From a virus, in IMG/VR virus record IMGVR_UViG_3300020166_000993, positions 1-64,000 of that record: DNA of 64,000 nt; one strand, 5' to 3'. This document shows positions 5,634 through 64,000 of this stretch, piece after piece (the first letter of the stretch is position 1; every line of letters starts with the position of its first letter). The translations under genes and the position numbers were made by a program. Under the pieces are notes generated by a model. That model worked only from the letters and a program-made list of their open reading frames with translations, was not told the DNA's origin and did no database searches.

Positions 5634-6623
5634 TTATTTAACTCCTGCGTTTAATAACGTAGCAAACTCTGTAGGTTGATCACTAAGTCTCTTTAAATCC
5701 CACTTAGCACAAAACTTCATAAAGTGTATGCCTACGTTCTGTACTTTTTCTTTATTTACTGCCTCAGCAATTACCGCATTGCATGCCTGCTTAACTTCTT
5801 CTGGTTGCATGGTTAAATCAATTAATGTACGGTTACGTTCATAGTCATCTCGAACACGATGCTCTATATCTTCATGGTCTGTCCAGCGTTGTAGCATAAA
5901 GTTATTGTAATTAAAGCCACCAGTGTTTCGATCTGCAAACGCTTCCGAAATACCAGTTTTATTTTTACTGCCCTTAGTACGTGCGCCTGGGTAAGCAGCA
6001 AACACATTGTCTGCACTATCACCACGAACACATTTTTCAAACAGAATCCATTCAGGATCAGGCAGTACTTTATCTTTACCAGTCTTCTTATCAACTATAC
6101 GCTTACCACTCTTAGCATCAACAAATCCTTCTAGACTAACAATTGTATCCTGTGTGCCGTTATATTGCTTGACATTGGGCGCCATTAGCTGATGGAAATC
6201 ACTATCTGTACTTACAATAACATGTTGATCATCTGGATGCTTTTGTATCCAGGTAGCAATTAGGTCGTCAGCCTCAGCATTACCACACTGGATAACACTA
6301 GAGTTTGTCTTTTCAGTAAAGAACTTGATCATGTCATTATAAGCTTCAAAGAACAATTCGTCATCTTCTTGTTCCCTGACTGATCTTTTAGCTGCTAACA
6401 CTTTACGATTGGCTTTGTAAGGGGGGTAAAAGTCTTTACGCCATGAACGACCTTCTAAACAAAACACAACATGACTGCCGTTAAAATCCTTCCAGGCCTT
6501 CTTAATGCTGTTAAACATAATGTGCATTGCCATGCCAATCTTCATGTCAATGTCCTTACCACCACCCACATGCTTTGCTCTGAAAAACATGTTCAAACTG
6601 TCTACTAGGATATATGTTGACAC
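5634..6623 (-). CDS. rnh: T4 RNase H-like 5'-3' exonuclease (FEN family)
   Basis: A 329-aa protein with the acidic metal-binding residues of FEN/PIN-like nucleases in order: VDSLNMFFRA, CGNAEADDLIA, VSTDSDFHQL and VRGDSADNV. T4 RNase H removes lagging-strand RNA primers and nearby DNA, working with gp32 and the clamp. The start is GTG at 6623, supported by an ideal AGGAGG ribosome site 6 nt upstream. The other core replication genes lie at 17.8-22 kb and 61-62 kb. Confidence 0.85.
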   Translation of the reverse strand: MSTYILVDSLNMFFRAKHVGGGKDIDMKIGMAMHIMFNSIKKAWKDFNGSHVVFCLEGRSWRKDFYPPYKANRKVLAAKRSVREQEDDELFFEAYNDMIKFFTEKTNSSVIQCGNAEADDLIATWIQKHPDDQHVIVSTDSDFHQLMAPNVKQYNGTQDTIVSLEGFVDAKSGKRIVDKKTGKDKVLPDPEWILFEKCVRGDSADNVFAAYPGARTKGSKNKTGISEAFADRNTGGFNYNNFMLQRWTDHEDIEHRVRDDYERNRTLIDLTMQPEEVKQACNAVIAEAVNKEKVQNVGIHFMKFCAKWDLKRLSDQPTEFATLLNAGVK

Positions 6624-6632
6624 TGTGACCTC

Positions 6633-6980
6633 CTATGGTCGATTCATTACACGTAAATATTTAAGTTTGGTTTTGCCTTTATTGTACACACGATGAAATA
6701 CACCTGCTTGAACAGTTACAATGTCTTGTGCATTTACTTTGTGTGTTTCTTCGATTTCTCCCTGCCCTTCGTCAGGATATCTCAAATACATCTCACCTGC
6801 GCCCTGGGTAAAAAAGAAAATTTCATCTTGTAAATGATGTTTGTGTCCAGCAGTATGGCTACCCGAAAACAGGTGAGTGCTACTGAGTATGAGATTATCA
6901 CCAACAAAGTTATCTTTTACAGTATAACTGTCATTCTCTTTGGTGATATGTCCGCCAATGTCATCAAATTCATCCTTCAT
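6633..6980 (-). CDS. cupin-domain protein
   Basis: A 115-aa single-cupin beta-barrel: motif 1 with AGHKHHLQDEIFFFTQGAGE (metal-binding His, His, Glu) and motif 2 with GVFHRVYN (final His). Single cupins bind a metal and can be isomerases, dioxygenases or sugar-binding proteins. The substrate cannot be read. It lies 9 bp before the RNase H gene and overlaps the collagen-like gene by 11 nt. Confidence 0.75.
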   Translation of the reverse strand: MKDEFDDIGGHITKENDSYTVKDNFVGDNLILSSTHLFSGSHTAGHKHHLQDEIFFFTQGAGEMYLRYPDEGQGEIEETHKVNAQDIVTVQAGVFHRVYNKGKTKLKYLRVMNRP

Positions 6981-29441: not shown

Positions 29442-29518
<77 letters not shown>

Positions 29519-29524
29519 AGTAGT

Positions 29525-29601
29525 TGGTGTCCCTAGAGGGATTCGAACCCCCGTTTCCACCCTGAGATGGTGGCGTTCTCGCCCATGTAAACTATAGGGA
29601 C
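29525..29601 (-). tRNA. tRNA-Glu (anticodon CTC)
   Basis: 77 nt with encoded CCA. Acceptor GTCCCTA/TAGGGAC, anticodon stem CCACC/GGTGG, loop ATCTCAG giving CTC (reads GAG). The D arm is slightly unusual. Six bases separate it from tRNA-Arg. Confidence 0.85.
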
Positions 29602-29611
29602 ATTTCTGCAA

Positions 29612-29995
29612 CTACTGTGGTACGTTAGGTAGTTGCCTCCATACAGGACCTTTTGTTCCAGCAGTAGAATAATTGTAACACCAGAAACTACCATCATTGC
29701 ATTGAAACAAAATGTCAGTTGTTCCGTCAGGCATTTCGATTAATGTATAATCCACAGCCATACGATTTGCATGCAAGTTTGATTCACGCTCATTGTGTTT
29801 CATTAATTGAAATTCTAGATTTTTCATCATTGAAAATAATTCTGTAAAATCCTGTTGATTTGAGTCTTGTTTAACTACTGGATCTCCAATAGCTAGGTCT
29901 TTAACGGAAGAACTTGATCCTGTTGGTTGTTCGGATTGTTGTCCCAACTCTACAAATTTTCCTAATTTTTTCTTTTCTTTATTAAATATATTCAT
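29612..29995 (-). CDS. hypothetical protein within tRNA cluster, 127 aa
   Basis: Starts MNIFNKEKKKLGKFVELGQQ; low-complexity N-terminal half, then a helix and a beta-rich C-terminus with tryptophans (DGSFWCYNYS). Good ribosome site AAGGA. It splits the tRNA cluster in two. Function unknown. Confidence 0.6.
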   Translation of the reverse strand: MNIFNKEKKKLGKFVELGQQSEQPTGSSSSVKDLAIGDPVVKQDSNQQDFTELFSMMKNLEFQLMKHNERESNLHANRMAVDYTLIEMPDGTTDILFQCNDGSFWCYNYSTAGTKGPVWRQLPNVPQ

Positions 29996-30029
29996 TAAAT
30001 TTCCTTAAAACAAATTTTTATAAGGGTTT

Positions 30030-30105
30030 TGGCTCCCTGTCGTGGGCTCGAACCACGGACCCAATGATTAACAGTCATTTGCTCTACCAACTGAGCTAAC
30101 AGGGA
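30030..30105 (-). tRNA. tRNA-Asn (anticodon GTT)
   Basis: 76 nt with encoded CCA. Acceptor TCCCTGT/ACAGGGA, anticodon stem ATGAC/…, loop CTGTTAA giving GTT, T arm CGTGGTTCGAGCCCACG. Confidence 0.93.
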
Positions 30106-30112
30106 ATTATCA

Positions 30113-30188
30113 TGGTGCCGCCACCAAGAGTCGAACTCGGGACCTACTGATTACAAATCAGTTGCTCTACCAACTGAGCTATAGCGGC
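30113..30188 (-). tRNA. tRNA-Thr (anticodon TGT)
   Basis: 76 nt with encoded CCA. Acceptor GCCGCTA pairs with TGGCGGC (one G-T pair), anticodon stem CTGAT/ATCAG, loop TTTGTAA giving TGT (reads ACA). Confidence 0.93.
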
Positions 30189-30231
30189 ATATGTCTATTT
30201 AACCCTTTATGCTCCAGCAAACCAAAATTAA

Positions 30232-30280
30232 TGGTAACCGGAGGCGGAATCGAACCGCCAAGGCCATTTATTTCTCCGTA
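30232..30280 (-). pseudogene. 3' remnant of a tRNA-Leu-like gene
   Basis: It holds a complete T arm (GCGGTTCGATTCCGC), a 3' acceptor strand and CCA, but no matching 5' half, D arm or anticodon arm. About 30 bp are identical except one base to the 3' part of the intact tRNA-Leu exactly 240 bp away. It looks like a decayed second tRNA-Leu. Confidence 0.7.
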
Positions 30281-30357
30281 TGGTAGGACTGGGTGGAATC
30301 GAACCACCGTTCTCTGACTTATAAGATCAGTGCATGACACCACTCTGCTACAGTCCC
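30281..30357 (-). tRNA. tRNA-Ile (anticodon TAT)
   Basis: 77 nt with encoded CCA. Acceptor GGGACTG/CAGTCCT, loop CTTATAA giving TAT, which reads ATA, a codon rare in many hosts but common in AT-rich phage genes. Confidence 0.85.
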
Positions 30358-30364
30358 TTTTATT

Positions 30365-30441
30365 TGGTGGGCCCTGATGGACTCGAACCATCGACCTGCC
30401 GATTATGAGTCGGATGCTCTAACCAACTGAGCTAAGGGCCC
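30365..30441 (-). tRNA. tRNA with anticodon CAT (Met or Ile2)
   Basis: 77 nt with encoded CCA. Acceptor GGGCCCT/AGGGCCC, anticodon loop CTCATAA. The acceptor stem and anticodon arm resemble E. coli tRNA-Ile2 (lysidine type) as much as elongator tRNA-Met. As a tRNA-Ile(TAT) is next door, Met is the default call. Confidence 0.85.
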
Positions 30442-30471
30442 TAATAGGTTATCTCTATTTTAATTATAGTT

Positions 30472-30559
30472 TGGTACCCGGAGGCGGACTCGAACCGCCA
30501 AGGCCATTACAGCCGGGGGATTTTAAGTCCCCTATGGTTACCAATTTCATCATCCGGGC
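30472..30559 (-). tRNA. tRNA-Leu (anticodon TAA)
   Basis: 88 nt with encoded CCA and the long variable arm of class II tRNAs. Acceptor GCCCGGA/TCCGGGT, anticodon stem GGGGA/TCCCC, loop CTTAAAA giving TAA (reads TTA). Its 5' end overlaps the stop codon of the upstream protein gene by 10 nt. Confidence 0.92.
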
Positions 30560-44643: not shown

Positions 44644-46827
44644 TTAGACAATACTTAACATGTAATCTTTATCTGTATATCCTATTTCTACCCAACAATC
44701 CTTTAAATTTTCAAACAATATTTTTTTACTCAATGGTTTCTTTATTTCGTGTTCAAACAATCGTTTTAATGGCCTTGCTCCCATATTAGGATCATATCCG
44801 TCTTGAGCTAGTTGTAAACGAGCATCCTGAGTAATCTTAATTCTAATTTTACTGTTGTTACCTATCAACAATGCGTTTGTTTCTTCTACTAGTTTATCAA
44901 CAATTAACAACATTTGTGTGTTCTCTAGTTTACTAAACGGCACTATTGCATCAATCCTGTTTCTAAATTCAGGGGCAAAAAATTGTTGGATAGCTTTATC
45001 AATCTCTCCCTGCTTTACGGGATCACCAAAACCAATTTTACGAACCTCACTTGCTTGTATTCCCAAATTGCTTGTCATTAAAATAATAACATTAGAAAAA
45101 TCTACTTTTTTGCCAGCACTACCAGTAAGAACTCCATCGTCCATAATTTGTAACAACACCTGTAAAACTTCTGGTGCTGCTTTTTCCACCTCATCTAATA
45201 ATAAAACACAATTAGGTGTTTCATCGATTGCTGCTAATAACTGACCTTGGCCCATTTTACCTTCTGCATGGCCAATATATCCTGGAGGAGCACCAATCAA
45301 TTTTGCAATGCTGTGTCTTTCTTGATATTCACTCATATCAAATTTTACCAATGTACAATTTAATTCCTCTGCTAATGCCCTTGCAGTTTCTGTTTTACCA
45401 GTACCTGTGGGTCCTACAAATAGAAAACTACCAATTGGTTTATGCACTTCCCGTAAACCTGCTTTGCTTACCAATATACTCTCTACAATTTTTGCAATTG
45501 CTTGATCTTGTCCGTAAACAACTGTCTTGATTCTATCTTCCAGTGTTTCGTAACCATAACTGCTTTCCGTATCAATTACGTCTTCGCCAATGTTACTTAT
45601 TTTACTAATAACTTTTACGACATCTGAAATTTTTACGGTTTTTTGTTCACGAAGTTTAACTCTAGCGCCAGCAGCATCTACAATGTCCAATGCTTTATCT
45701 GGAAAACACTTATTTTTGATATATCTATCAGAAAGGTCAACTACTCTGCTTAATAATTTTAAGCTGTATTTTACATGATGGAATTCTTCGTAATAGGATT
45801 TCAGACCGTATAGAATATCCTTAGTGTCAGCAACTGAAGTTTCATTGATTATTAGTTTTTCAAAACGCCGTTTCATTGCGCCATCTTTTTCTATACTATT
45901 AGCAAATTCGTCTGGAGTAGTTGCTCCTATGGTTTGTAATCTACCTCTACCTAACGCAGGCTTTAGGATATTTGCAGCATCAACTGATCCGCTAGATCCT
46001 GTACCTGCTCCCATGATCATATGTATTTCGTCTATAAACAAAATAGCGTCTGGGTCTTTTTCTAGATAGGAAATTACACCTTTTAATCTTTCCTCAAAGT
46101 CACCTCTGTACTTGGCACCTGCAATCATTCCTGCTAAGTCCATGCTGTACACAACTTTGTTTTTCATTATATTTGGTATTTCACCGTCTACAATTTTTTT
46201 AGCCAACCCTTCTGCAATAGCAGTTTTACCTGTGCCTGGTTCCCCTACTAACACACAGTTATTTTTCTTTCTTTTTGCAAGTACGTGTACTAAGTCACTT
46301 ACCTCGTTTTGTCTTCCAATTAAAGGATCTATCTTGGAATTTTTTGCTTCTTGGTTTAAGTTTATGGTGTATTGTTCCAATAAATCTCTTGCTTCGTTAT
46401 CTTCCTTTTCTTTGATAATTTTCTCTTTAATTGTCTCTTTTTCTAATCCGTTTATTTCGCAATAGTAACGAGCAAAACTTTCTTCCTCGCTTAAAATACT
46501 AATTAACAAATCTGTTGTTTCAAATTTGTCTTTTTGGCTAAACATCATTTGTGCTACGCCTCTTTGAAAAACACGATCAACTAATGTTGTTTTTTTAGGT
46601 TTTCCTTTAGTGCCGTGAACATTCTTTAAACCATGCCAACTTTCTCTGTTAAAATAGTTATTTAAGTCTGTGATTATTTGATCAACGTCAACTGTATTTT
46701 CCTTACATACCTCTATTATTTTTTCGTCCCTGAGTAAGCACAAAACAATATGTTCTAGAGTAACATATTCATGATTTAGTTCTTGGGCTACAGTTAGCGC
46801 ATTATGCATTACTTCTTCAATTGTCAC
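44644..46827 (-). CDS. clpA: ClpA-like AAA+ unfoldase
   Basis: 727 aa. A Clp N-domain (residues 1-140), first AAA+ module with GEPGTGKT (195-202) and ILFIDE (262-267), second with GPTGTGKT (472-479) and VLLLDE (541-546). There is no long coiled-coil middle domain, so it is ClpA rather than ClpB. RKIGFGDP (IGF at 598-600) sits where ClpA carries its IGL/IGF ClpP-docking loop. It should unfold proteins and feed ClpP; no clpP gene is in the window, so host ClpP is the likely partner. It overlaps the co-chaperone gene by ATGA. Confidence 0.9.
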   Translation of the reverse strand: MTIEEVMHNALTVAQELNHEYVTLEHIVLCLLRDEKIIEVCKENTVDVDQIITDLNNYFNRESWHGLKNVHGTKGKPKKTTLVDRVFQRGVAQMMFSQKDKFETTDLLISILSEEESFARYYCEINGLEKETIKEKIIKEKEDNEARDLLEQYTINLNQEAKNSKIDPLIGRQNEVSDLVHVLAKRKKNNCVLVGEPGTGKTAIAEGLAKKIVDGEIPNIMKNKVVYSMDLAGMIAGAKYRGDFEERLKGVISYLEKDPDAILFIDEIHMIMGAGTGSSGSVDAANILKPALGRGRLQTIGATTPDEFANSIEKDGAMKRRFEKLIINETSVADTKDILYGLKSYYEEFHHVKYSLKLLSRVVDLSDRYIKNKCFPDKALDIVDAAGARVKLREQKTVKISDVVKVISKISNIGEDVIDTESSYGYETLEDRIKTVVYGQDQAIAKIVESILVSKAGLREVHKPIGSFLFVGPTGTGKTETARALAEELNCTLVKFDMSEYQERHSIAKLIGAPPGYIGHAEGKMGQGQLLAAIDETPNCVLLLDEVEKAAPEVLQVLLQIMDDGVLTGSAGKKVDFSNVIILMTSNLGIQASEVRKIGFGDPVKQGEIDKAIQQFFAPEFRNRIDAIVPFSKLENTQMLLIVDKLVEETNALLIGNNSKIRIKITQDARLQLAQDGYDPNMGARPLKRLFEHEIKKPLSKKILFENLKDCWVEIGYTDKDYMLSIV

Positions 46828-47648
46828 TTAAATACCTCATCTTTTATTTTATTTAACATCGATATATGCTCAGGATTAGTAATATTAGGTGTCTTAATAT
46901 CTAATATTAAAAACAAATGTCCTTTGCTGTTGATATTATTAGGACTAGGCATACCCCATTGGCTTAGTCTTAATCTTTCCCCTGTACACGAACCTCTTGG
47001 TATTTTTACTTTGAACCTAGATCCTGCAAAGTGTTCGTATTCTATTTCTCCTCCTATCATTGCAGTGATACAGTCTATGTTAATTTTATGCAATACATTA
47101 TCCCCATCACGTGCCATGTTTGGTGGCATTTGTGTTTGTATTCTTACAATCAAATCTCCAGGAGGTAACTGTTTAAATCGTTGATGTCCTTTGCCGTGTA
47201 TTCTTAATTTTGCCCCTTCACGAATACCAGGTGGCAATGATATATTTTCGTTTATAACCCCAGCGTTTATGTTAAAATCTCCGCCTGTATAGGATTGCAA
47301 AAGACTAATATTTAAATTTACTTGTGCATCAGGATTTCTTTGTTGCTGTGGTCCTCTGTTACTAAATCCAAATTGTGACATGACATCATCAAACGGGCTA
47401 CCGGTATTAAAGTTAAAACTGAATCCCTGAGGTCCACCTTGTTGTTGTGGATCCACTGTACCAAACTGATCATACATTTGACGCTTTTGAGGATCACTTA
47501 ATCCTTCATATGCTTCTTGTAATTTTTTGAACTCAGCTTCGTCGCCGCCTTTGTCAGGATGATGTTGTCCAGCTAACTTGCGATAAGCACGTTTAATCGT
47601 TTGTGGATCCGCATCGCGAGCCACGCCTAGTGTTTGATAGTAATCCAT
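46824..47648 (-). CDS. CbpA-type DnaJ co-chaperone
   Basis: 274 aa. J domain at residues 1-66 with the essential HPD (HHPDKGG), a Gly/Phe-rich segment (about 75-100), then two beta-rich substrate domains (GIREGAKLRIHGKGHQRF). The zinc-finger domain of full DnaJ is missing, as in CbpA. It should stimulate host DnaK and deliver clients, possibly together with ClpA. The ATG is 8 nt after a TATAAT, giving a nearly leaderless mRNA. Confidence 0.88.
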   Translation of the reverse strand: MDYYQTLGVARDADPQTIKRAYRKLAGQHHPDKGGDEAEFKKLQEAYEGLSDPQKRQMYDQFGTVDPQQQGGPQGFSFNFNTGSPFDDVMSQFGFSNRGPQQQRNPDAQVNLNISLLQSYTGGDFNINAGVINENISLPPGIREGAKLRIHGKGHQRFKQLPPGDLIVRIQTQMPPNMARDGDNVLHKINIDCITAMIGGEIEYEHFAGSRFKVKIPRGSCTGERLRLSQWGMPSPNNINSKGHLFLILDIKTPNITNPEHISMLNKIKDEVFK

Positions 47649-47724: not shown

Positions 47725-50700
47725 TTAAAAGACGTACTTTAATCCTAACTGGATACGACTTAAACTTCTGTAGTAGTTAATCGCTTGATTATCCACACGG
47801 TCTAAGCTCATGCCGTAAGCTGGACGATATTCATAACTGTATGAGCCGTCAGCGTTTGTGACTGGTACTGCTTCAGCTAAACTACGGGCTGAGTTGTTTG
47901 CTTTAGTCTGCTGTCCCCAATCTGAGTTCAACAAGTTAGGCAAGTTCTCAATATCAAGTGATACTAGGACCTTGTCTGCCTTGCGAAATCCTGGAAACTC
48001 TTGAGTAACTTTTAAGTCAACTCTGTAGTTCCAATCAGTTTCGAACTCGTTGATTGGTGCAAAGCCACCTGCATAACCTGCTAAACCAGCTGCTGCAATG
48101 TATGCGTTGTAATCAGCTGCAAAGTAATCAGGAATGATTACGTCTGTACCTGAACCATTTGGTACATAAAATGCTGCTGTTTCATCACGAGCTGATTCTC
48201 TATCCAATCCCCATAACGCACCATCTTTATACTGACCAAGAGTATAGCTGAATGGTTCGCCACTTACAGCGCCAGCAATTAATGCAAAGCGTGTTGGTGA
48301 GTTTGGAATCCAGTTTGCAGTATAACCTGCAACAACACTAATTGTGTGTTCACGGCTGTATGGGCTTCTGTGCAATACGTCTGCATTGAAGTCTTCATAC
48401 TTAGTGGTGTACTTGAAGTTACTGATGTTACGTGAGCTGCTTAAAGCACCTACTGTTTCTACATCTTGCCAAGTGTAATTAGCGTATAAGTCAAAGCCAT
48501 TATCAAAGGCCTTTGCAACACTAGCTGAGAACAAAAGACTTTCGCCTTTGTCTGTGTTAGTGAGTAACATGTCATAACCACGACCGTCAATGAATTTCTC
48601 CATTGCTTTACCACATACACTATAGTCTGCATAAATTGCTCTGCCATCTGGGCCTGTACCAATTTGAGTATTTGATACATAGTCACCAATTTCTGGACAA
48701 TCTACAGCACCACCAAATGCAGGGTTGCCAATACGCAACTGCCGGAAGTGTAAGTCTTTGTCTACTTTGGTCATTAACAAGTCTGCTGTCATATCCCAAC
48801 CATCACCAAAAGTCCAATCAGCGCCAATGCTTACTTTAAGTTCACGTGGCAATTCAAAGTTTGGATCCATGATGTCAGCATAACCAGGACGGAATCCAGG
48901 TTGACCAGGCTGATAAATGTACTGGTCAAATACTGATGTATCAAACCCATCAAAGCCTGCTGCTGCTTCTAGTGGAACGTTTGCGTTTTGGATACCAATA
49001 CCATCATTGCTGAAAGTACCACCCATCCACACGTTAGGACGTCCACCAGTAAAGTAACCTGCACCACCGCGGAATGTTACATCCTGGAAGAAAGCAAGGT
49101 CATCTGCTTGGAATGAAAAACTAACTCTAGGCAAGAATACATCTTTGCCGTCTAAGCTAGTAGCGTTACTGAAACCATAGTATTGTTCAATTTGAGGATT
49201 AGCCTTTGGTGCTTGATCCATAGAGATCTTTTCCCAACGTGCGCCAGCATTAACAGTTAATCTGTCAGTAGCGTCCCAGGTATCCTGAATATAGAAACTG
49301 GTAGTTTCAATAGCAAAGGCAGCACTGCCATCAGCAGGGTCGCCACTTGGTGCATTACGATAGTCAATGTCGTAAGGAGTCTTGTTAGCAAAGTCTTCAA
49401 TGCTTGCAAAAACTAACTCACCATCGCTGTATGCAACAAAGCCGTTAAAAACGTCTACTTCGTTGTAATGCACACCAGCAACAATTTCATGTTGGCCCAG
49501 CAAGTAACTTGCTTCCAATTCCATCTCTGTTGTGGTTGTACTGAGTGTGTTAAAGTGACGGAAAACGTCAGGACCCATTAATACTTGTGGGCCTCTGTTG
49601 CCTTCGCCTAGTTCAACAACTGCTCGCATAAAGTCTGCACCACCAACACTGTCTTGTGCTGTATCAACTTCACGCTTACCATATCGTACACTTGTGCTTA
49701 ACTTGTCATTCCAATCTGAAAAGATTTGAACGCTGTTAGCAGCAAGTTCAGATGTTTTGATGTAGTTACCTGAGGTAAGTGCTAACACAGTGTTTGAACC
49801 ACCGTACTCGCTTACATCGTTATTGTCTGAAGTCTGGTGGGTAAAAGTTGCACGATGGAAATCTGAGATATTCCAATCCAACTTAACCAACAAATCTTCG
49901 TCTTCTAGCATGTTATCCATGCCGCTTGCGCTACCTGCATTATAACCATAAACTGAATCAGCAATGGCAATAATTTCCTGTGCGTCAGCAAGTGACACGC
50001 CGTCTACTTCTCTAACGGCACCAGATCCAGCAGCACCAAAAACACCTGGCTCTTGCTTTTCAAATTTGTCATAGTTGACAAAGAAGAAAAGTTTGTCTTC
50101 CAGGATTGGACCACCGAATGTAAAACCAACAGTTTCTTCATCAAACTCACCATTGGTGACTTCAGTGCCGTCAGTTTCATCACCTACAAAACTGTCGTTA
50201 GTCTTATAAGCATACACGCTACCAGAAAATTCATTTGTACCTGACTTAGTAACAACATTAATGTTACCAGCAGTTGAACCTGAATCTCTTACGTCATAGT
50301 CTACCACGCTCACAGTTACCTGATCAACGCTTTCCAATGCAATAGGCGAACGTACACCTGGGTAGCCGCCATACTCCAAACCGAAGTCATCTGATTGGCC
50401 AATACCGTCAACACTGAATGAGCTATAACGTGCGTTTTGTCCAGCGATGCTGATACTTTCAGTATCGTCACCGTTGAAACTGATGCTGTAAACATTCACA
50501 AATGGTTGTGTTGCAACTGCATCTTTTAGGTCACGGCGAACACTAGCAATATCATTAACTTGATCTGCTGTCATTACGCCGCTTGGACCAGCTTGCAGAC
50601 CTTTGAGGTCTTGTCTGATCGCTGTTACTACTACTTCTTCCATACTGCGTTCTGGTGCAACGGTTAAACGTAAACGTTCTTCTTTACCCAAGTTCAAGAA

Positions 50701-50979
50701 GATACCTGATGCGGAACCCAGTGAATCACCTACAGTTGCAGCAACGTAGTAAGGACCGCCAACACGTAAATTACGTGCTACAAAGATACCTTGCTCGTTT
50801 GTTGTTTGTAGTGAAATTGAACCAGATGGTTCGTGTGTGATAACGACTTTAGCGCCGTCTACTACTGCACCCCCAGAGTCAACAACGACTCCACGAATAG
50901 CACTAGTTGTCTCCGAGGCAACCGAACCAACAGAAAATACTGCAAGTACGATACCAAGGAGGAGTTTGCGAATATTCAT
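47725..50979 (-). CDS. TonB-dependent outer membrane receptor (Oar-like)
   Basis: 1084 aa and apparently complete. Signal peptide (residues 1-22, cut after SVAS), then a carboxypeptidase-regulatory-like beta domain (about 27-110, SAIRGVVVDSGGAVVDGAKV), a TonB box (EEVVVTA, about 114-120), a plug domain with SFSVDGIGQSDDFG, and a long beta-barrel ending in LGLKYVF with the terminal Phe of outer-membrane proteins. Such receptors import nutrients with TonB energy. In a phage it may remodel the host surface, replace a lost receptor or block superinfection. The promoter and neighbours are phage-like. Confidence 0.88.
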   Translation of the reverse strand: MNIRKLLLGIVLAVFSVGSVASETTSAIRGVVVDSGGAVVDGAKVVITHEPSGSISLQTTNEQGIFVARNLRVGGPYYVAATVGDSLGSASGIFLNLGKEERLRLTVAPERSMEEVVVTAIRQDLKGLQAGPSGVMTADQVNDIASVRRDLKDAVATQPFVNVYSISFNGDDTESISIAGQNARYSSFSVDGIGQSDDFGLEYGGYPGVRSPIALESVDQVTVSVVDYDVRDSGSTAGNINVVTKSGTNEFSGSVYAYKTNDSFVGDETDGTEVTNGEFDEETVGFTFGGPILEDKLFFFVNYDKFEKQEPGVFGAAGSGAVREVDGVSLADAQEIIAIADSVYGYNAGSASGMDNMLEDEDLLVKLDWNISDFHRATFTHQTSDNNDVSEYGGSNTVLALTSGNYIKTSELAANSVQIFSDWNDKLSTSVRYGKREVDTAQDSVGGADFMRAVVELGEGNRGPQVLMGPDVFRHFNTLSTTTTEMELEASYLLGQHEIVAGVHYNEVDVFNGFVAYSDGELVFASIEDFANKTPYDIDYRNAPSGDPADGSAAFAIETTSFYIQDTWDATDRLTVNAGARWEKISMDQAPKANPQIEQYYGFSNATSLDGKDVFLPRVSFSFQADDLAFFQDVTFRGGAGYFTGGRPNVWMGGTFSNDGIGIQNANVPLEAAAGFDGFDTSVFDQYIYQPGQPGFRPGYADIMDPNFELPRELKVSIGADWTFGDGWDMTADLLMTKVDKDLHFRQLRIGNPAFGGAVDCPEIGDYVSNTQIGTGPDGRAIYADYSVCGKAMEKFIDGRGYDMLLTNTDKGESLLFSASVAKAFDNGFDLYANYTWQDVETVGALSSSRNISNFKYTTKYEDFNADVLHRSPYSREHTISVVAGYTANWIPNSPTRFALIAGAVSGEPFSYTLGQYKDGALWGLDRESARDETAAFYVPNGSGTDVIIPDYFAADYNAYIAAAGLAGYAGGFAPINEFETDWNYRVDLKVTQEFPGFRKADKVLVSLDIENLPNLLNSDWGQQTKANNSARSLAEAVPVTNADGSYSYEYRPAYGMSLDRVDNQAINYYRSLSRIQLGLKYVF

Positions 50980-51119: not shown

Positions 51120-51959
51120 TTAATCAAACCATAAACAATTTATTTCAGTCTCTATACTTGATCTAGGCGTATCTTGCCTGCCAGGAAATAAAAAAGATGA
51201 ATGCGGTGTAAACCAGCGTTTAGTTTTAAGCAAAGATGAATCATATAATCTAAATAACACAACTTCGTCATAGGTCATTTCTGAATAATAATACCAATTA
51301 TGTGTTATTTCTGGTTTTTTTGAAAAGAGTAACATATGATGTGAGTAGTTAGGATCATTGTTAGCCTCGATATATTTTTTCACTAAATGATCTGGTACTT
51401 TGTAATTAATCATTTCCAAAGGATGTATACTCGTGGGATCACACCAAGCCATTTGACTACAAGGATTAGTTTCTCCTGTATTACGCCAGGCCTTGAACAT
51501 TGCCCAACGTTTAATTGTTGGACTAGGATCGTGGATTTTTTTACTAGCATGCCCTATAAAACTGGGGATGTTGGAAAAATCCAAGTGTTTAAATTTATAG
51601 CCTAAAATTTCAAAAGCATTTGATGTGAGATCGTTATGAGCAAATACAGCAGGAGGTAAGTCTTCTTCTTGATCAGTGGATCTAAATCTAGATTTATTTA
51701 CTAATACACAATCTGCATCAGTTTTTTCCAGACCCAACTTAGCTAATTTGTGATGGTATCTATGTAGGTCATTACTATCGGGCCCGAGTGTTGGGGTAAG
51801 CTTACCAAGTTCGTCGATGTTATGAGGGATAAGCTCAAATCCTAAGGATTGGAGACCTGGTAGTTTAATGGTTCTAGCATTCATTATTTCAACAGGGAAG
51901 TCTTTGTACTCCTCAGGGGTAGGAGATCTATATACACGGTATTGAATAGTAGTTTTCAT
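51120..51959 (-). CDS. CmcJ/NvfI-family oxygenase-like protein
   Basis: 279 aa. The C-terminal half shows the family pattern: FKAWRNTGE, QMAWCDPTSI, NWYYYSEMTYDEVVLF, RLYDSS, TPHSSF and PRSSIETEINCLW. Members include the CmcJ subunit of cephamycin biosynthesis and fungal 2OG-dependent NvfI-type oxygenases. A non-haem iron oxygenase role is likely. It overlaps a methyltransferase gene by ATGA, as part of a four-gene cassette with a sulfotransferase and a second family member. Confidence 0.65.
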   Translation of the reverse strand: MKTTIQYRVYRSPTPEEYKDFPVEIMNARTIKLPGLQSLGFELIPHNIDELGKLTPTLGPDSNDLHRYHHKLAKLGLEKTDADCVLVNKSRFRSTDQEEDLPPAVFAHNDLTSNAFEILGYKFKHLDFSNIPSFIGHASKKIHDPSPTIKRWAMFKAWRNTGETNPCSQMAWCDPTSIHPLEMINYKVPDHLVKKYIEANNDPNYSHHMLLFSKKPEITHNWYYYSEMTYDEVVLFRLYDSSLLKTKRWFTPHSSFLFPGRQDTPRSSIETEINCLWFD

Positions 51960-52567
51960 TTAAGTTTCTTAAGAACCAATACACTGCCTGCACTGTCTAC
52001 TTCCTGCCCTTTACCGCCATCAACTAATTCCTGACACGCAGTGGTTACGCCAGGACAATGGTTAATCTGATTACGATGTTTTAATCCGTCGTTAGGCACA
52101 GCATCATGGAATACACATAATCCTCCAATGTCTAAACTGTCCCAGTGAGTGTCAATATCTCGCTTAACTCCTTCGTAGGAATGGTCACCATCAATAAATA
52201 ATAATCCTAAATTACCTGTTGTTATGTTTTTAGCATCATCTTTAATCAGTTTTAAACTCTTGGAAAACTCAGGATCTGAGAAATATTTTTCTGATGTCTG
52301 GTGATGGGCTGGCGCAATGTCAACACTAATCACAGGCCTGTCAGCCCCAGCGGCCGCTACAATTAACACAGTGCTACCACCATGGCGTCTGCCAATTTCC
52401 AGTATAGTACCTGAAGTAGCTTTAATAGATCGCCACAGGCATTCTGCCTCATCAAAGTTCAGACGTACGATACCTCTGTCATTGTTGTTGTTATAGGGGG
52501 TGTCTTTATATCCATGTAAGAATTTCATTTCTGAAACACTATTGAATTTTGTTTGTAATGTAATCAA
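51956..52567 (-). CDS. SAM-dependent methyltransferase (CmcI/Methyltransf_24-like)
   Basis: 203 aa. GTILEIGRRHGGSTVLI (motif I), VISVDIAP, GLLFIDGDHSYEGVKRD and GGLCVFHDAV fit the methyltransferase 24 / cephalosporin hydroxylase-like group. The reading starts at TTG 52567, which has AGGAG at ideal distance; the first ATG is at 52528. It is flanked by CmcJ-like genes, recalling the CmcI-CmcJ pair. Confidence 0.75.
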   Translation of the reverse strand: MITLQTKFNSVSEMKFLHGYKDTPYNNNNDRGIVRLNFDEAECLWRSIKATSGTILEIGRRHGGSTVLIVAAAGADRPVISVDIAPAHHQTSEKYFSDPEFSKSLKLIKDDAKNITTGNLGLLFIDGDHSYEGVKRDIDTHWDSLDIGGLCVFHDAVPNDGLKHRNQINHCPGVTTACQELVDGGKGQEVDSAGSVLVLKKLK

Positions 52568-52605
52568 GTGTACTCCTATTAATTTTATTAAGTTGTCTGT
52601 TTCTT

Positions 52606-53196
52606 TTACCGCAGATTACTCTTTGTTATACTATTATTTTTTAATGCGTTTTCCATGCATACCTTACTGTTGTGTCTTACATCTCCATCAAATAAAAATT
52701 GTTGTAATTTATCTAACTTAGTTAAATTAATATTAATCATATCATTAAATGATAAGTTAAAAGTATTTTCTGTGCCCTGCCAGCCTGCAACTCCGTTACG
52801 AAGTTTAGCCAAATTATCGATGGGGAACGCTGCTTCGCTTAAATCTTGCCTTTTTGTTTGCTCCCTCATTCTGTTCAGTGATTCAATACATTCTTGTTTG
52901 TCCCTTGTTAACAGAATTTTTTTAAAATCTTTTAATGATTTTTCTGTTATAGGATTATATTCAATGTGCCCTTGAGAAAAATAATTATCAGTTATTAATG
53001 ATGCAGTGCGTGTTATTGGCCGATACACCGCCTTATCCGGTCCATACAGTTTTTCTTTATGAATATTGCGTGGATTAAATTTTACAAAACCTGTCGATGT
53101 AAAATGCATCCAGCTAGGATTTATTTTTAATTCAGAAAGCAAGTTTACGCATAAGTAAGTTCCTGATTTAGGTTGGCTAATAATAACATATTTCAT
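52606..53196 (-). CDS. sulfotransferase-like protein, 196 aa
   Basis: ISQPKSGTYLCVNLL is the PAPS 5'-phosphosulfate loop (PKSGTxxL) at the N-terminus, and ILLTRDKQECIESL the 3'-phosphate region (RDxxxxxxS-like). This is a clearer match than the sulfotransferase at 23369. Its ATG is one base after the stop of the second CmcJ-like gene. Confidence 0.75.
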   Translation of the reverse strand: MKYVIISQPKSGTYLCVNLLSELKINPSWMHFTSTGFVKFNPRNIHKEKLYGPDKAVYRPITRTASLITDNYFSQGHIEYNPITEKSLKDFKKILLTRDKQECIESLNRMREQTKRQDLSEAAFPIDNLAKLRNGVAGWQGTENTFNLSFNDMININLTKLDKLQQFLFDGDVRHNSKVCMENALKNNSITKSNLR

Positions 53197-53197
53197 T

Positions 53198-54202
53198 TTA
53201 ATTTAACCAACCTAATAAACAGTTACAGTCTATGCTTGTTCTATGTGGTAATCCTTTTTCTTTAAGACGAAATCCAGTGTGTATACTTGCCCAGGATTTG
53301 TTTTGATAAAACTTTTGGCTGTCCCAAATATTAAATAAGATTAATTCATCAGGTTGTAGGTTGGGATAATAATAATACTTTCCAATAAGTTGAGTACAAT
53401 CTCTATGTATTGTTAATGTTTGATAGTTTGAATCCTCAAATATTTTTCTCACCTCACAAGTTTTAAGTACATCAATATTACCTGAGCCTTCTAGCATGAA
53501 TTGGTTATCAGGATGTTCAGGCCCTAAGTTTCTCCAGCTGTTATAGCATGCTGTTCTAACTGTACTCCAATCGGCATCAGCAAGTGATTGTTTGTTTATA
53601 CCAGGAGCAAATCTTACTGTATAATCCTTATGCAGGATTGAATTCGGATTGATTACTCTGTTAAGCCATAGTCGACTAGTGTTAAACCTACGTGTAGATT
53701 TTTCCAGTTTTGAATGTGTTAAACCTACACTGTGCAATATTAGAGCTTTTATATATGGCTCCATTGCGGAATGATAATCATTGTGCAGTGACGAGGCTAC
53801 AGTACATTGGTTTTTTACTGTACGTAGGCGATAAGCAGCAGGGCTAGGCCCTGGGATGTTTTCTTGTAAATTAAAATGCTTACCCGTCTCGGAGAGATTG
53901 ACATTCTCGGAGCGCTCCCCTGAGGGCAGATGATTACTTGAACGTATCCTATGACTATGACATAACACTATGTCTGGTTTAAATGTATCCATCATTATAT
54001 CAGCTAGTTCATTATAATAGACTTCAGCTATTTTTTCAGAGTTAGTTATAATCCTGCTATTGTCTCTAGAAGTAAAAACTTTTGATTTATGATTTAATAA
54101 AGTAAGGTTATTACTGCCAAAATTAATATCTGCTTCCCTTGCATTATGAATGTCAATGTCGATAATGCCATCATGGAGATTGATCTCACCAGTGATTTTC
54201 AT
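53198..54202 (-). CDS. second CmcJ/NvfI-like oxygenase, 334 aa
   Basis: The C-terminal part repeats the pattern of the 51120 protein: CYNSWRNLGPE, KYYYYPNLQPDELILFNIWDS, SIHTGF and HRTSIDCNCLL. The N-terminal 150 residues are beta-rich and differ. It overlaps the spanin lipoprotein gene by ATGA. Probably acts in the same pathway as the first oxygenase; substrate unknown. Confidence 0.6.
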   Translation of the reverse strand: MKITGEINLHDGIIDIDIHNAREADINFGSNNLTLLNHKSKVFTSRDNSRIITNSEKIAEVYYNELADIMMDTFKPDIVLCHSHRIRSSNHLPSGERSENVNLSETGKHFNLQENIPGPSPAAYRLRTVKNQCTVASSLHNDYHSAMEPYIKALILHSVGLTHSKLEKSTRRFNTSRLWLNRVINPNSILHKDYTVRFAPGINKQSLADADWSTVRTACYNSWRNLGPEHPDNQFMLEGSGNIDVLKTCEVRKIFEDSNYQTLTIHRDCTQLIGKYYYYPNLQPDELILFNIWDSQKFYQNKSWASIHTGFRLKEKGLPHRTSIDCNCLLGWLN

Positions 54203-59102: not shown

Positions 59103-59855
59103 ATGTCACGTAAGAAGCGTAAAGCAAATTGCAACAAATACCGAAGAAACCAACCACAAGGAGAACCATATTTGAGACTAGTACAGGGCGGCGCACCTTT
59201 AGAGCGTAACAGAAACAAACAAGTAAACATTGTACCCAGAAACTTCCACCAGGATAATTTATTAGATTATCTGGAAGATCACAAAATCAACATAGTTTTT
59301 GCTGTGGGCCCAGCAGGCACAGGCAAAACACTCATTTCAACACTAGCAGGCATCAGAGAACTAAAAGCAGGTGACATCGACAAGTTCGTAGTAACCCGCC
59401 CTGCTGTAAGTGTGGATGAGCAACACGGTTTCTTGCCAGGAACTTTACAAGAGAAAATGGCGCCGTGGACGAGACCCATATTTGATATCTTTGAGGAATA
59501 CTATAGCCCAGATCAAATTGAGTACATGTTGAGTGATAATAAAGTAGAAATTGCTCCACTAGCATATATGCGTGGACGCACTTTTAAAAACTCATTCATC
59601 ATAGCAGATGAGATGCAGAATGCTACAGAAAGCCAAATGAAAATGCTACTAACCAGAATAGGAGATGGTAGTAAAATTGTGGTTACTGGCGACCTAGCGC
59701 AGCATGATCGTGGCTATGAATCAAACGGCTTAAAGTTGTTCATTGAGAGATTGGTGAGAACAGGAAGCGACCGCATCAAACTAGTAGAGTTTGACAGTAA
59801 GGACATTGAACGACACCCAGTGGTAGATGAAGTACTAAGACTTTACGCTGAGTAG
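59103..59855 (+). CDS. phoH: PhoH-like ATPase
   Basis: 250 aa. Walker A GPAGTGKT (about residue 70), KFVVTRPAV, FIIADEMQNAT (Walker B) and VVTGDLAQHD are the PhoH signature. It is an RNA/NTP-related P-loop ATPase very common in marine phages; its exact role is unsettled. The basic N-terminus (SRKKRKANCNKYRR) may bind nucleic acid. AGGAG precedes the ATG and a terminator follows. Confidence 0.92.
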   Translation: MSRKKRKANCNKYRRNQPQGEPYLRLVQGGAPLERNRNKQVNIVPRNFHQDNLLDYLEDHKINIVFAVGPAGTGKTLISTLAGIRELKAGDIDKFVVTRPAVSVDEQHGFLPGTLQEKMAPWTRPIFDIFEEYYSPDQIEYMLSDNKVEIAPLAYMRGRTFKNSFIIADEMQNATESQMKMLLTRIGDGSKIVVTGDLAQHDRGYESNGLKLFIERLVRTGSDRIKLVEFDSKDIERHPVVDEVLRLYAE

Positions 59856-61102: not shown

Positions 61103-62026
61103 TTATTGGGCATTCATTTGTAATTCTACGAGTGTAGCACTTAAATTAATCTCAGGATCAGCACAAGCAACACTTTTAACCATGCCATCTCTGATAATTA
61201 ACAATGCCTGATCCTGTGTTGCTTGACTATTGCCCCAAAGTTCTAGATTACGATACAGGAATCTAAACACATCATCATATTCTTCTGGGCGAGCCTGTGT
61301 AACAATCATTTCCCTCGCAGGTTTGTAGTCACCTTTCTTGAACAGTTCAATAGCACTCAGCATCCAGTCTGATGTACTGCTTTCTCCTGCTTGTGGTTTC
61401 TTTAACTGTCCATCCACTACATTCTGTTGCACTAGATTAATACACTTACGCAAATCAGGATAGGTTGCCTGCACATAAGTATCCAGTGTTTCTAAATCCA
61501 GGTCCACACCTTCACTAATACCAATCGTTGCAATACGTGCAGTAAATTCTGTGGTATCCAGTTTCTCAATGTGGAAGCCCTGACATCTACTGTGCAATGC
61601 AGGAATAACACGTTGAGGATAATTGCAAGTAAGCAAAAACCTACAACTGGTGTGATACATTTCCATTACGCCACGCAATGCTGCTTGACCGTTTGGAGTA
61701 ATATAATCTGCCTCATCCAGCAACACATACTTCATATCACCAAATGGCATTGTGCTAGCAAAGTTAGTGATCTTGTTTCTAATTGTATCTACATTGTTTT
61801 CGTTACTGGCGTTGATCTCTAATACGTCTAAATCGTTTACATCTAGCTCTGCAAGTAATACTTTTGCTAATGTGGTCTTGCCTGTGCCTGGTGCTCCTGA
61901 AAATAACAAATGCGGCATTGCACCACTTGCTATCCAACCTTGTACTTGCGCTTTTTGTTTTGCATCACGAAAAACATAATCTTTTGTGTTGTTTGGTCTG
62001 TATTTTTCAGTCCATAATTCTTTCAT
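61103..62026 (-). CDS. 44: clamp-loader large subunit gp44
   Basis: About 307 aa, near T4 gp44 (319). Starts MKELWTEKYRPNNTKDYVF (the WxEKYRP clamp-loader signature). GAPGTGKTTLAK is Walker A, YVLLDEADYI Walker B, LTCNYP sensor I and HSRCQ the arginine-finger SRC motif. It loads the gp45 clamp with gp62, which is not in the window. The ATG is preferred to an upstream TTG at 62059. Confidence 0.93.
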   Translation of the reverse strand: MKELWTEKYRPNNTKDYVFRDAKQKAQVQGWIASGAMPHLLFSGAPGTGKTTLAKVLLAELDVNDLDVLEINASNENNVDTIRNKITNFASTMPFGDMKYVLLDEADYITPNGQAALRGVMEMYHTSCRFLLTCNYPQRVIPALHSRCQGFHIEKLDTTEFTARIATIGISEGVDLDLETLDTYVQATYPDLRKCINLVQQNVVDGQLKKPQAGESSTSDWMLSAIELFKKGDYKPAREMIVTQARPEEYDDVFRFLYRNLELWGNSQATQDQALLIIRDGMVKSVACADPEINLSATLVELQMNAQ

Positions 62027-62045
62027 ATTGTGTCCCGTTTGTGTG

Positions 62046-62330
62046 TTATAGTCCGCCAATGGTAAAGGAGTTAAGCTTGTTTACTGGAATTGTGTCAGTA
62101 TGTTCTAAAATAAAATGTGCTGCTACAGCATCATCTTTAAATTCTGCATCCACGCCAACTACCAGATAATGATCTCCTGGTTCAAAATATCTTGTAAATT
62201 GTACAGCATTATCCGGATATTGTCTACTCCATTCCATAAAAGGTTCAACAGTGTCCCTGATCATCATGTCGAGGACCCAATCTTCCATGCTGTCATTTGC
62301 AGTGCATTGTATTACCTTTATTGTCTTCAC
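62046..62330 (-). CDS. hypothetical protein, 94 aa
   Basis: Starts with GTG at 62330, overlapping the upstream stop as GTGA. Mixed alpha/beta with RYFEPGDHYLVVGVDAEF. Not recognised. It precedes gp44 by 19 bp. Confidence 0.6.
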   Translation of the reverse strand: MKTIKVIQCTANDSMEDWVLDMMIRDTVEPFMEWSRQYPDNAVQFTRYFEPGDHYLVVGVDAEFKDDAVAAHFILEHTDTIPVNKLNSFTIGGL

Positions 62331-62728: not shown

Positions 62729-63067
62729 TCAGAAAGAGTACCTCACTTCAGTTTCAACCTTGGTCTTAGCATCGCCAGTGTCCTTGGTCTCCAGTTTACC
62801 TTTAACTGTTACAGCATCAAACTTAAACTTGTATCCTGCTTCGTAACTGTGACCCTTAGTCATTGGTCCGATTTCAAAATACATGTTGTTCTTTGCTTTA
62901 TATCCAAAACGCAAATGGTTAGTTGTCTTAGTGTGATCCCACTCTTTCAACTCGTACTCGTTCTTGTATTCTATATAGGGTGCAGCATTGGCATTAGAAC
63001 CAAGAATTGCTACAACCATTAACACTAGTAATCCTACATACACACTTTGAAAAAACTTCTTTGCCAT
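62729..63067 (-). CDS. small outer-membrane-type protein, 112 aa
   Basis: A clear signal peptide (residues 1-28, ending SNANA). Mature chain of alternating strands rich in Tyr, Lys and Glu (NHLRFGYKAKNNMYFEIGP) and a C-terminal VRYSF with the terminal Phe used by the BAM machinery. Only about eight short strands fit. AAGGAG precedes the ATG. Probably a tiny beta-barrel or barrel fragment. Role unknown. Confidence 0.65.
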   Translation of the reverse strand: MAKKFFQSVYVGLLVLMVVAILGSNANAAPYIEYKNEYELKEWDHTKTTNHLRFGYKAKNNMYFEIGPMTKGHSYEAGYKFKFDAVTVKGKLETKDTGDAKTKVETEVRYSF

Positions 63068-63214: not shown

Positions 63215-63874
63215 TTAAAACAATTTTTTAGTGATTGTAACAAATGCTTGCTTTTCATCTGATAAGTCTGAAGCATCATCAGCTTTAAATGAGCTGTAAC
63301 CAAATGTAGCGTCTGATTCAAAAGCAGTGCCTTCGAAAATACTTACGCCTTTAGAAACTTTCCAGTTGGTTCCTGCACCATCTAAATCGCCAAAGCTAGC
63401 ATCAAAGTGGCCCAGAACATCTACACTTACTTCCATGTAGTCTGCTGCATCGTCCATTCCTTTGAAGTAAGAAGCACTTACTGCTTTGTATCCCAATGAG
63501 ACCATAACTTCTTCTACATCAAGAGCTGACTCGTTAAAGTCTACTAACTCATCGAAGCTGCTATAATTGTAATCAATGTATGCAACATCCAAAGTTAAGC
63601 CTTCACCACCCATCTTGTAACCAGCATAGATGTCATACTCTGCTTCAATGTCTGTACCGTAATCAACTTGACTACCCCATACACCAGCATAAAAATTGCC
63701 AGCAGAGACATTTACGTCTGCACTAACAGCAGGACTATTAGCATTTTGTGCCATACCACGGAAAATGTATTCCGAAGATACACCAACAGAACCACCAACT
63801 TCTAAAGCTGATACACTGCCAGCGAACAATAATGCACCCACTGCAACAAGTGACTTAATATTTAATATATTCAT
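63215..63874 (-). CDS. TorF-family (Gcw_chp) putative porin
   Basis: 219 aa from the ATG at 63874, which has AAGGA; the longer frame to 63913 is rejected. Signal peptide (residues 1-23, ending VSA). SSEYIFRGMAQNANSPAV is the N-terminal signature of the TorF/Gcw_chp porin family, followed by amphipathic strands and a terminal LF. It would form an outer-membrane beta-barrel. A terminator follows. A porin gene in a phage is unusual; with the other two outer-membrane genes it suggests surface remodelling. Confidence 0.78.
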   Translation of the reverse strand: MNILNIKSLVAVGALLFAGSVSALEVGGSVGVSSEYIFRGMAQNANSPAVSADVNVSAGNFYAGVWGSQVDYGTDIEAEYDIYAGYKMGGEGLTLDVAYIDYNYSSFDELVDFNESALDVEEVMVSLGYKAVSASYFKGMDDAADYMEVSVDVLGHFDASFGDLDGAGTNWKVSKGVSIFEGTAFESDATFGYSSFKADDASDLSDEKQAFVTITKKLF

Positions 63875-64000
63875 AATTTTTCCTTTTCTTTGGAGCAAAT
63901 AAATTTGCCTCACTTTTATTTAGCTTTTTCTTGCAGTTTTCTTACATTTTTTGGAATTGCATATGAATAGCATAGTTGGAAAGGCTTAACCCTGGTAGTA

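Follow-up and report, generated by a model that had tools for sequence, protein, structure and literature searches.

A dnaJ-clpA gene pair in a viral fragment as the probable part of a phage-owned ClpAP(S)-type protease

A viral unfoldase that carries a docking loop for ClpP, on DNA without a clpP gene, raises the question of which peptidase it serves. This is the situation in the window analysed here, a 64,000-nucleotide stretch of a linear viral fragment whose whole record (IMG/VR IMGVR_UViG_3300020166_000993) is 65,720 bp in length. Overlapping dnaJ and clpA genes lie on its minus strand, and an earlier note, made from the letters of the window, took the loop together with the lack of clpP to predict that the phage captures host ClpP. 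A search for clpP (PF00574) found none in the whole 65,720-bp record, so the absence is real, but the fragment stops before the site at which relatives carry the gene. We consider it likely, with a probability of roughly 0.8, that the pair is part of a phage-owned ClpAP(S)-type protease together with a J protein recruiting DnaK from the host, and not of borrowed host machinery.

The clpA gene (44644..46827, minus strand) starts with GTG and encodes a two-module AAA+ unfoldase of 727 residues, with Clp_N, AAA, AAA_lid_9, AAA_2 and ClpB_D2-small domains. The protein can be aligned over its whole length with E. coli ClpA (PDB 1ksf; E 4e-175) and matches phrog_4871 (E 3e-238), and the alignment leaves the Walker A and B motifs, pore loops, sensors and arginine fingers all intact, in agreement with the earlier claim that both ATPase modules are kept. 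Domain order, motifs and an IGL/IGF docking loop are shared with the E. coli ClpAPS system. Comparison of the N-domain, which had also been proposed, identifies it as the least conserved part, with only 23% identity to E. coli ClpA as against 46-48% for D1 and D2; in cellular ClpA this domain receives substrates and adaptors. The TIGR02639 score of 804 bits is below the NCBI cellular-ClpA equivalog cut-off of 993 bits, and the protein is best classed as a phage member of the ClpA family, not as a cellular ClpA equivalog.

Within D2 the ClpP-docking tripeptide is IGF where E. coli has IGL. Its placement at residues 598-600 (window 45028-45036, minus strand), the ClpP-contact position named in the earlier note, is borne out by the alignment to the E. 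coli IGL and by conservation among phages. In an alignment of 68 distinct phage ClpAs, I598 and G599 are each found in 68/68 and F600 in 65/68, the three exceptions having V, V and Y, whereas the positions before and after them vary (entropy about 1.2-3 bits). A near-invariant tripeptide between variable flanks argues for constraint, that is, for a sequence kept by selection and not a chance match, and supports the view that the loop is conserved as a ClpP-docking element.

The relatives indicate where the partner of such a loop is to be sought. The records searched for clpP were those of relatives found with the ClpA query together with named phages, and the gene is present in 37 of these 51 (14/17 + 15/22 + 8/12). 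Within the window's own clade, defined by ClpAs at least 55% identical, 22 records extend more than 15 kb beyond clpA on its upstream side and every one of them has clpP, and the six clpP-negative records all have less than 12 kb there. Seven relatives are collinear with the window from 46 to 65.6 kb, through clpA, dnaJ, the genes at 54199, 54626, 55069 and 55827, and two synteny anchors, a phoH-like gene (59103..59855, plus strand), which in relatives lies between dnaJ-clpA and clpP, and a clamp-loader-like AAA ATPase gene (61103..62059, minus strand). Past the window end, several relatives also share a dehydrogenase-like gene (64346-65158, record coordinates) and two small genes (65139-65387 and 65374-65583, record coordinates), which are the last genes in common. 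In the seven collinear relatives clpP follows this terminal gene at 3.7-4.6 kb; G039, G040 and G044, which also share the order TonB receptor-dnaJ-clpA, have it at about 3.7 kb, and in L134 clpP lies about 5 kb beyond the orthologue of gene 65139. The record itself ends some 140 bp after the last gene shared with relatives. Because it is a fragment that ends short of the relatives' clpP site, the missing gene is best read as an effect of truncation, and synteny predicts a clpP in the window virus about 4 kb beyond the fragment end. A terminal-gene scan for a contig of the same virus spanning the record end returned relatives only, the best at 62% (L134). A phage ClpP, which would explain the loop trivially, is present in relatives, though not directly in the window virus. 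By eye, a short gene that relatives have on the way from the window's terminal gene to clpP looks like that of a T4 gp31/GroES-type co-chaperonin (L096, about 6414-6782; L097, 5823-6170; L098, 12781-13197).

The phage ClpPs that were aligned have an intact Ser-His-Asp triad, and most are about 195-200 residues long and 57-65% identical to E. coli ClpP. Their hydrophobic docking pocket for IGL/IGF is mostly kept, at positions that we take to be those of the pocket in E. coli ClpP, and the enzymes look functional. Six jumbo phages (Atu_ph07, Phosso, PA5oct, RaK2, Vibrio 2.275 and SCTP-2) carry ClpA, ClpP and ClpS together. ClpS was found in 16 of the 24 records searched, including all six named phages; it is missing from several of these records, two of the closest (G001, G003) among them, which may be fragments, and none is encoded on the 65,720-bp fragment. 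ClpA and ClpP distances are correlated (Mantel r 0.83, n=19, 0/2000 permutations as high), which is partly due to shared genome descent. The ClpAs of RaK2, Vibrio 2.275 and SCTP-2 have IGV or IGY in place of IGF, and their ClpPs are among the most diverged (36-49% identical to E. coli), three cases only, which hint at private ClpA-ClpP pairing. Canonical IGL/IGF partners would also fit the pocket of the phage ClpPs, so that cross-docking with host ClpA or ClpX or, conversely, of phage ClpA with host ClpP is conceivable.

The other half of the pair, dnaJ (46824..47648, minus strand), has an ATG start and encodes 274 residues with an HPD motif and DnaJ_C but without the zinc finger (CxxCxGxG), a domain make-up that places the product among class B J-domain co-chaperones. 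It had been described as CbpA-like and as overlapping clpA by ATGA. The four-base overlap is real, but its letters are GTGA (...TTT AAG TGA / GTG ACA...), and the likeness to CbpA was not upheld: the CbpA profile gives 88 bits, far short of the equivalog cut-off of 403 bits, against 140 bits for DnaJ2/PRK14299, so the protein is nearer to the DnaJ2 type. We know of no dnaJ-clpA gene pair in cells, and in E. coli the neighbour of clpA is clpS, whereas in the window it is dnaJ. Among phages the coupling recurs. Of the 81 phage loci having upstream sequence, 69 encode a J protein that ends no more than 150 nt before clpA; in five it lies farther upstream and in seven it is missing. In 11 loci (L050, L051, L056-L059, L061, L065, L067, L071 and L072) the clpA-adjacent J protein has only 125-147 residues, with little beyond the J domain. 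In four of the five loci with a more distant J protein (L076, L078, L079 and L090, the last being Phosso) dnaJ and clpA are separated by 510-680 nt that hold a peptide-deformylase-like gene, annotated as such in Phosso and called by eye in the rest, an arrangement that suggests N-terminal processing linked to the ClpA system. No Hsp70 gene was found across the 16 phage records searched, and hence the J protein would have to act on host DnaK. This supports the DnaK partner in the earlier proposal that the J protein recruits DnaK clients; the feeding of those clients to ClpA is presumed.

Three other accounts of the pair have to be weighed. Had the phage no ClpP of its own, its ClpA could dock on host ClpP through IGF and redirect host proteolysis, as the earlier note predicted. 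The absence of clpP from the record and the compatibility of IGF with bacterial ClpP speak for this, and precedents exist of phage adaptors redirecting a Clp protease of the host, as with an SPO1 protein on ClpCP (PMC6873191). Relatives nevertheless encode their own clpP, in each of the 22 clade members whose upstream sequence is long enough and, where mapped, at one place just past the record end, which makes capture of host ClpP improbable. A recent capture of the genes themselves, with clpA and dnaJ carried as passengers, is hardly credible. Every domain does resemble bacterial ClpA, but the motifs are conserved, identity to any sampled bacterial ClpA does not exceed 44%, the best value obtained, and in a tree with only ClpB and proteobacterial ClpA as outgroups the 40 phage ClpAs group together, apart from the 33 proteobacterial ones (SH-aLRT 99). 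On this tree we reject a recent acquisition of clpA from the host; the window ClpA is the product of an old phage gene.

It is also conceivable that ClpA and DnaJ/DnaK act independently of proteolysis, disaggregating or remodelling proteins to serve virion assembly or the initiation of replication, with ClpP docking being secondary. J proteins and Hsp100 disaggregases cooperate in ClpB systems, and the direct neighbour of clpA is dnaJ, not clpP or clpS. Translocase or assembly roles have, moreover, been proposed (Iyer et al. 2021; PMC7824862). An almost invariant ClpP-docking tripeptide would be unexpected for a protease-free role, however, and clpP co-occurs; we regard this account as unlikely. 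Under the preferred reading, that of a phage-owned protease, the carrier would be a jumbo phage (T4-like, with a B-family polymerase) whose ClpA unfolds proteins and docks via its IGF loop on phage-encoded ClpP. Many of these genomes, but not every record, also encode a phage ClpS at another site. Since the search for a phage Hsp70 came up empty, the J protein, co-translated with ClpA, would most likely stimulate the DnaK of the host and may hand unfolded or host-derived clients, the putative substrates of the ClpAP system, to ClpA. A bolder version, which we put forward tentatively and think somewhat doubtful, is that the J protein is a dedicated adaptor coupling host DnaK to a phage-private ClpAP, and so steering clients of DnaK, such as regulators of the host or misfolded proteins, into degradation under phage control.

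The closest parallels are found in other large phages. In Agrobacterium phage Atu_ph07 (ClpA gp292, DnaJ gp293, ClpP gp676, ClpS gp708; PMC6102473) dnaJ is directly upstream of clpA, as in the window, and full ClpA, ClpP and ClpS are phage-encoded. Its ClpA is only 43% identical to that of the window, its 490-kb genome also encodes ClpX and ClpB (PMC6102473) and, unlike the window, it is without a gene of the TonB-receptor family. Pseudomonas phage PA5oct and Sinorhizobium phage Phosso likewise have a J protein by ClpA, with ClpP and ClpS elsewhere in the genome, although the J protein of PA5oct is shorter (229 residues as against 274) and Phosso differs in the peptide deformylase gene between dnaJ and clpA. 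The Rki protein of RB43 is a phage J-domain protein dependent on host DnaK, as the window J protein would be; its abstract describes a protein that stabilises sigma32, not a generic co-chaperone, and does not connect it with any ClpA gene (Perrody et al. 2012; PMC3486835).

Directly upstream of dnaJ the window encodes a TonB-dependent-receptor-like (Oar-like) outer-membrane protein of 1084 residues (47725-50979, minus strand), with a signal-peptide-like N-terminus, CarboxypepD_reg, a weak plug and a beta-barrel. This neighbour led us to consider a chimeric contig, which is ruled out by six other viral contigs with the same receptor-dnaJ-clpA order (L006, L007, L011, L012, L015 and L151; 72-75% identity). 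The gene has a dN/dS of about 0.1. Among 50,697 phage records its product matches a single one, an uncultured fragment of 6 kb, and a pattern-limited scan found four bacterial relatives, 32-35% identical; a literature search for phage-encoded TonB-dependent receptors returned nothing relevant. The protein possibly acts in receptor masking or replacement (superinfection control) or in nutrient uptake, and a conserved phage-encoded receptor of this kind may be more novel than the ClpA-DnaJ finding. Elsewhere in the window, seven tRNA genes are clustered at 29442-30559 on the minus strand, and a methyltransferase-like gene (Methyltransf_24; 51956-52567) lies in a block (51120-54202) for which the relatives compared gave no match. 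Two proteins encoded at 62729-63067 and 63215-63913 have signal-peptide-like N-termini and a beta-strand-rich look and are perhaps located in the outer membrane.

Phage-encoded ClpA, ClpP, ClpS and DnaJ are already on record. They were reported in Atu_ph07, with virion assembly, replication or the clearing of aggregates suggested as their roles (Attai et al. 2018; PMC6102473), and in jumbo phages more widely, where phage ClpS was suggested to bring targets to host ClpAP and ClpA to function in translocation or assembly (Iyer et al. 2021; PMC7824862). A 2025 paper on moraphages counts ClpA among the core genes and also deals with DnaJ/DnaK (PMC12619734). The present analysis adds that a whole ClpAP(S) set occurs together, that dnaJ and clpA are coupled in locus after locus, and that the inference of host ClpP capture, though tempting, was wrong, with the missing partner sitting just off the fragment in relatives; the tight coupling across a phage-only ClpA clade is in itself a modest addition. 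Collectively, the J protein, ClpA, ClpP and often ClpS would make up a coherent proteostasis module that is conserved throughout a large clade consisting of phages only, and Atu_ph07, PA5oct and Phosso provide concrete pairs for testing whether DnaK is coupled to a ClpAP owned by the phage.
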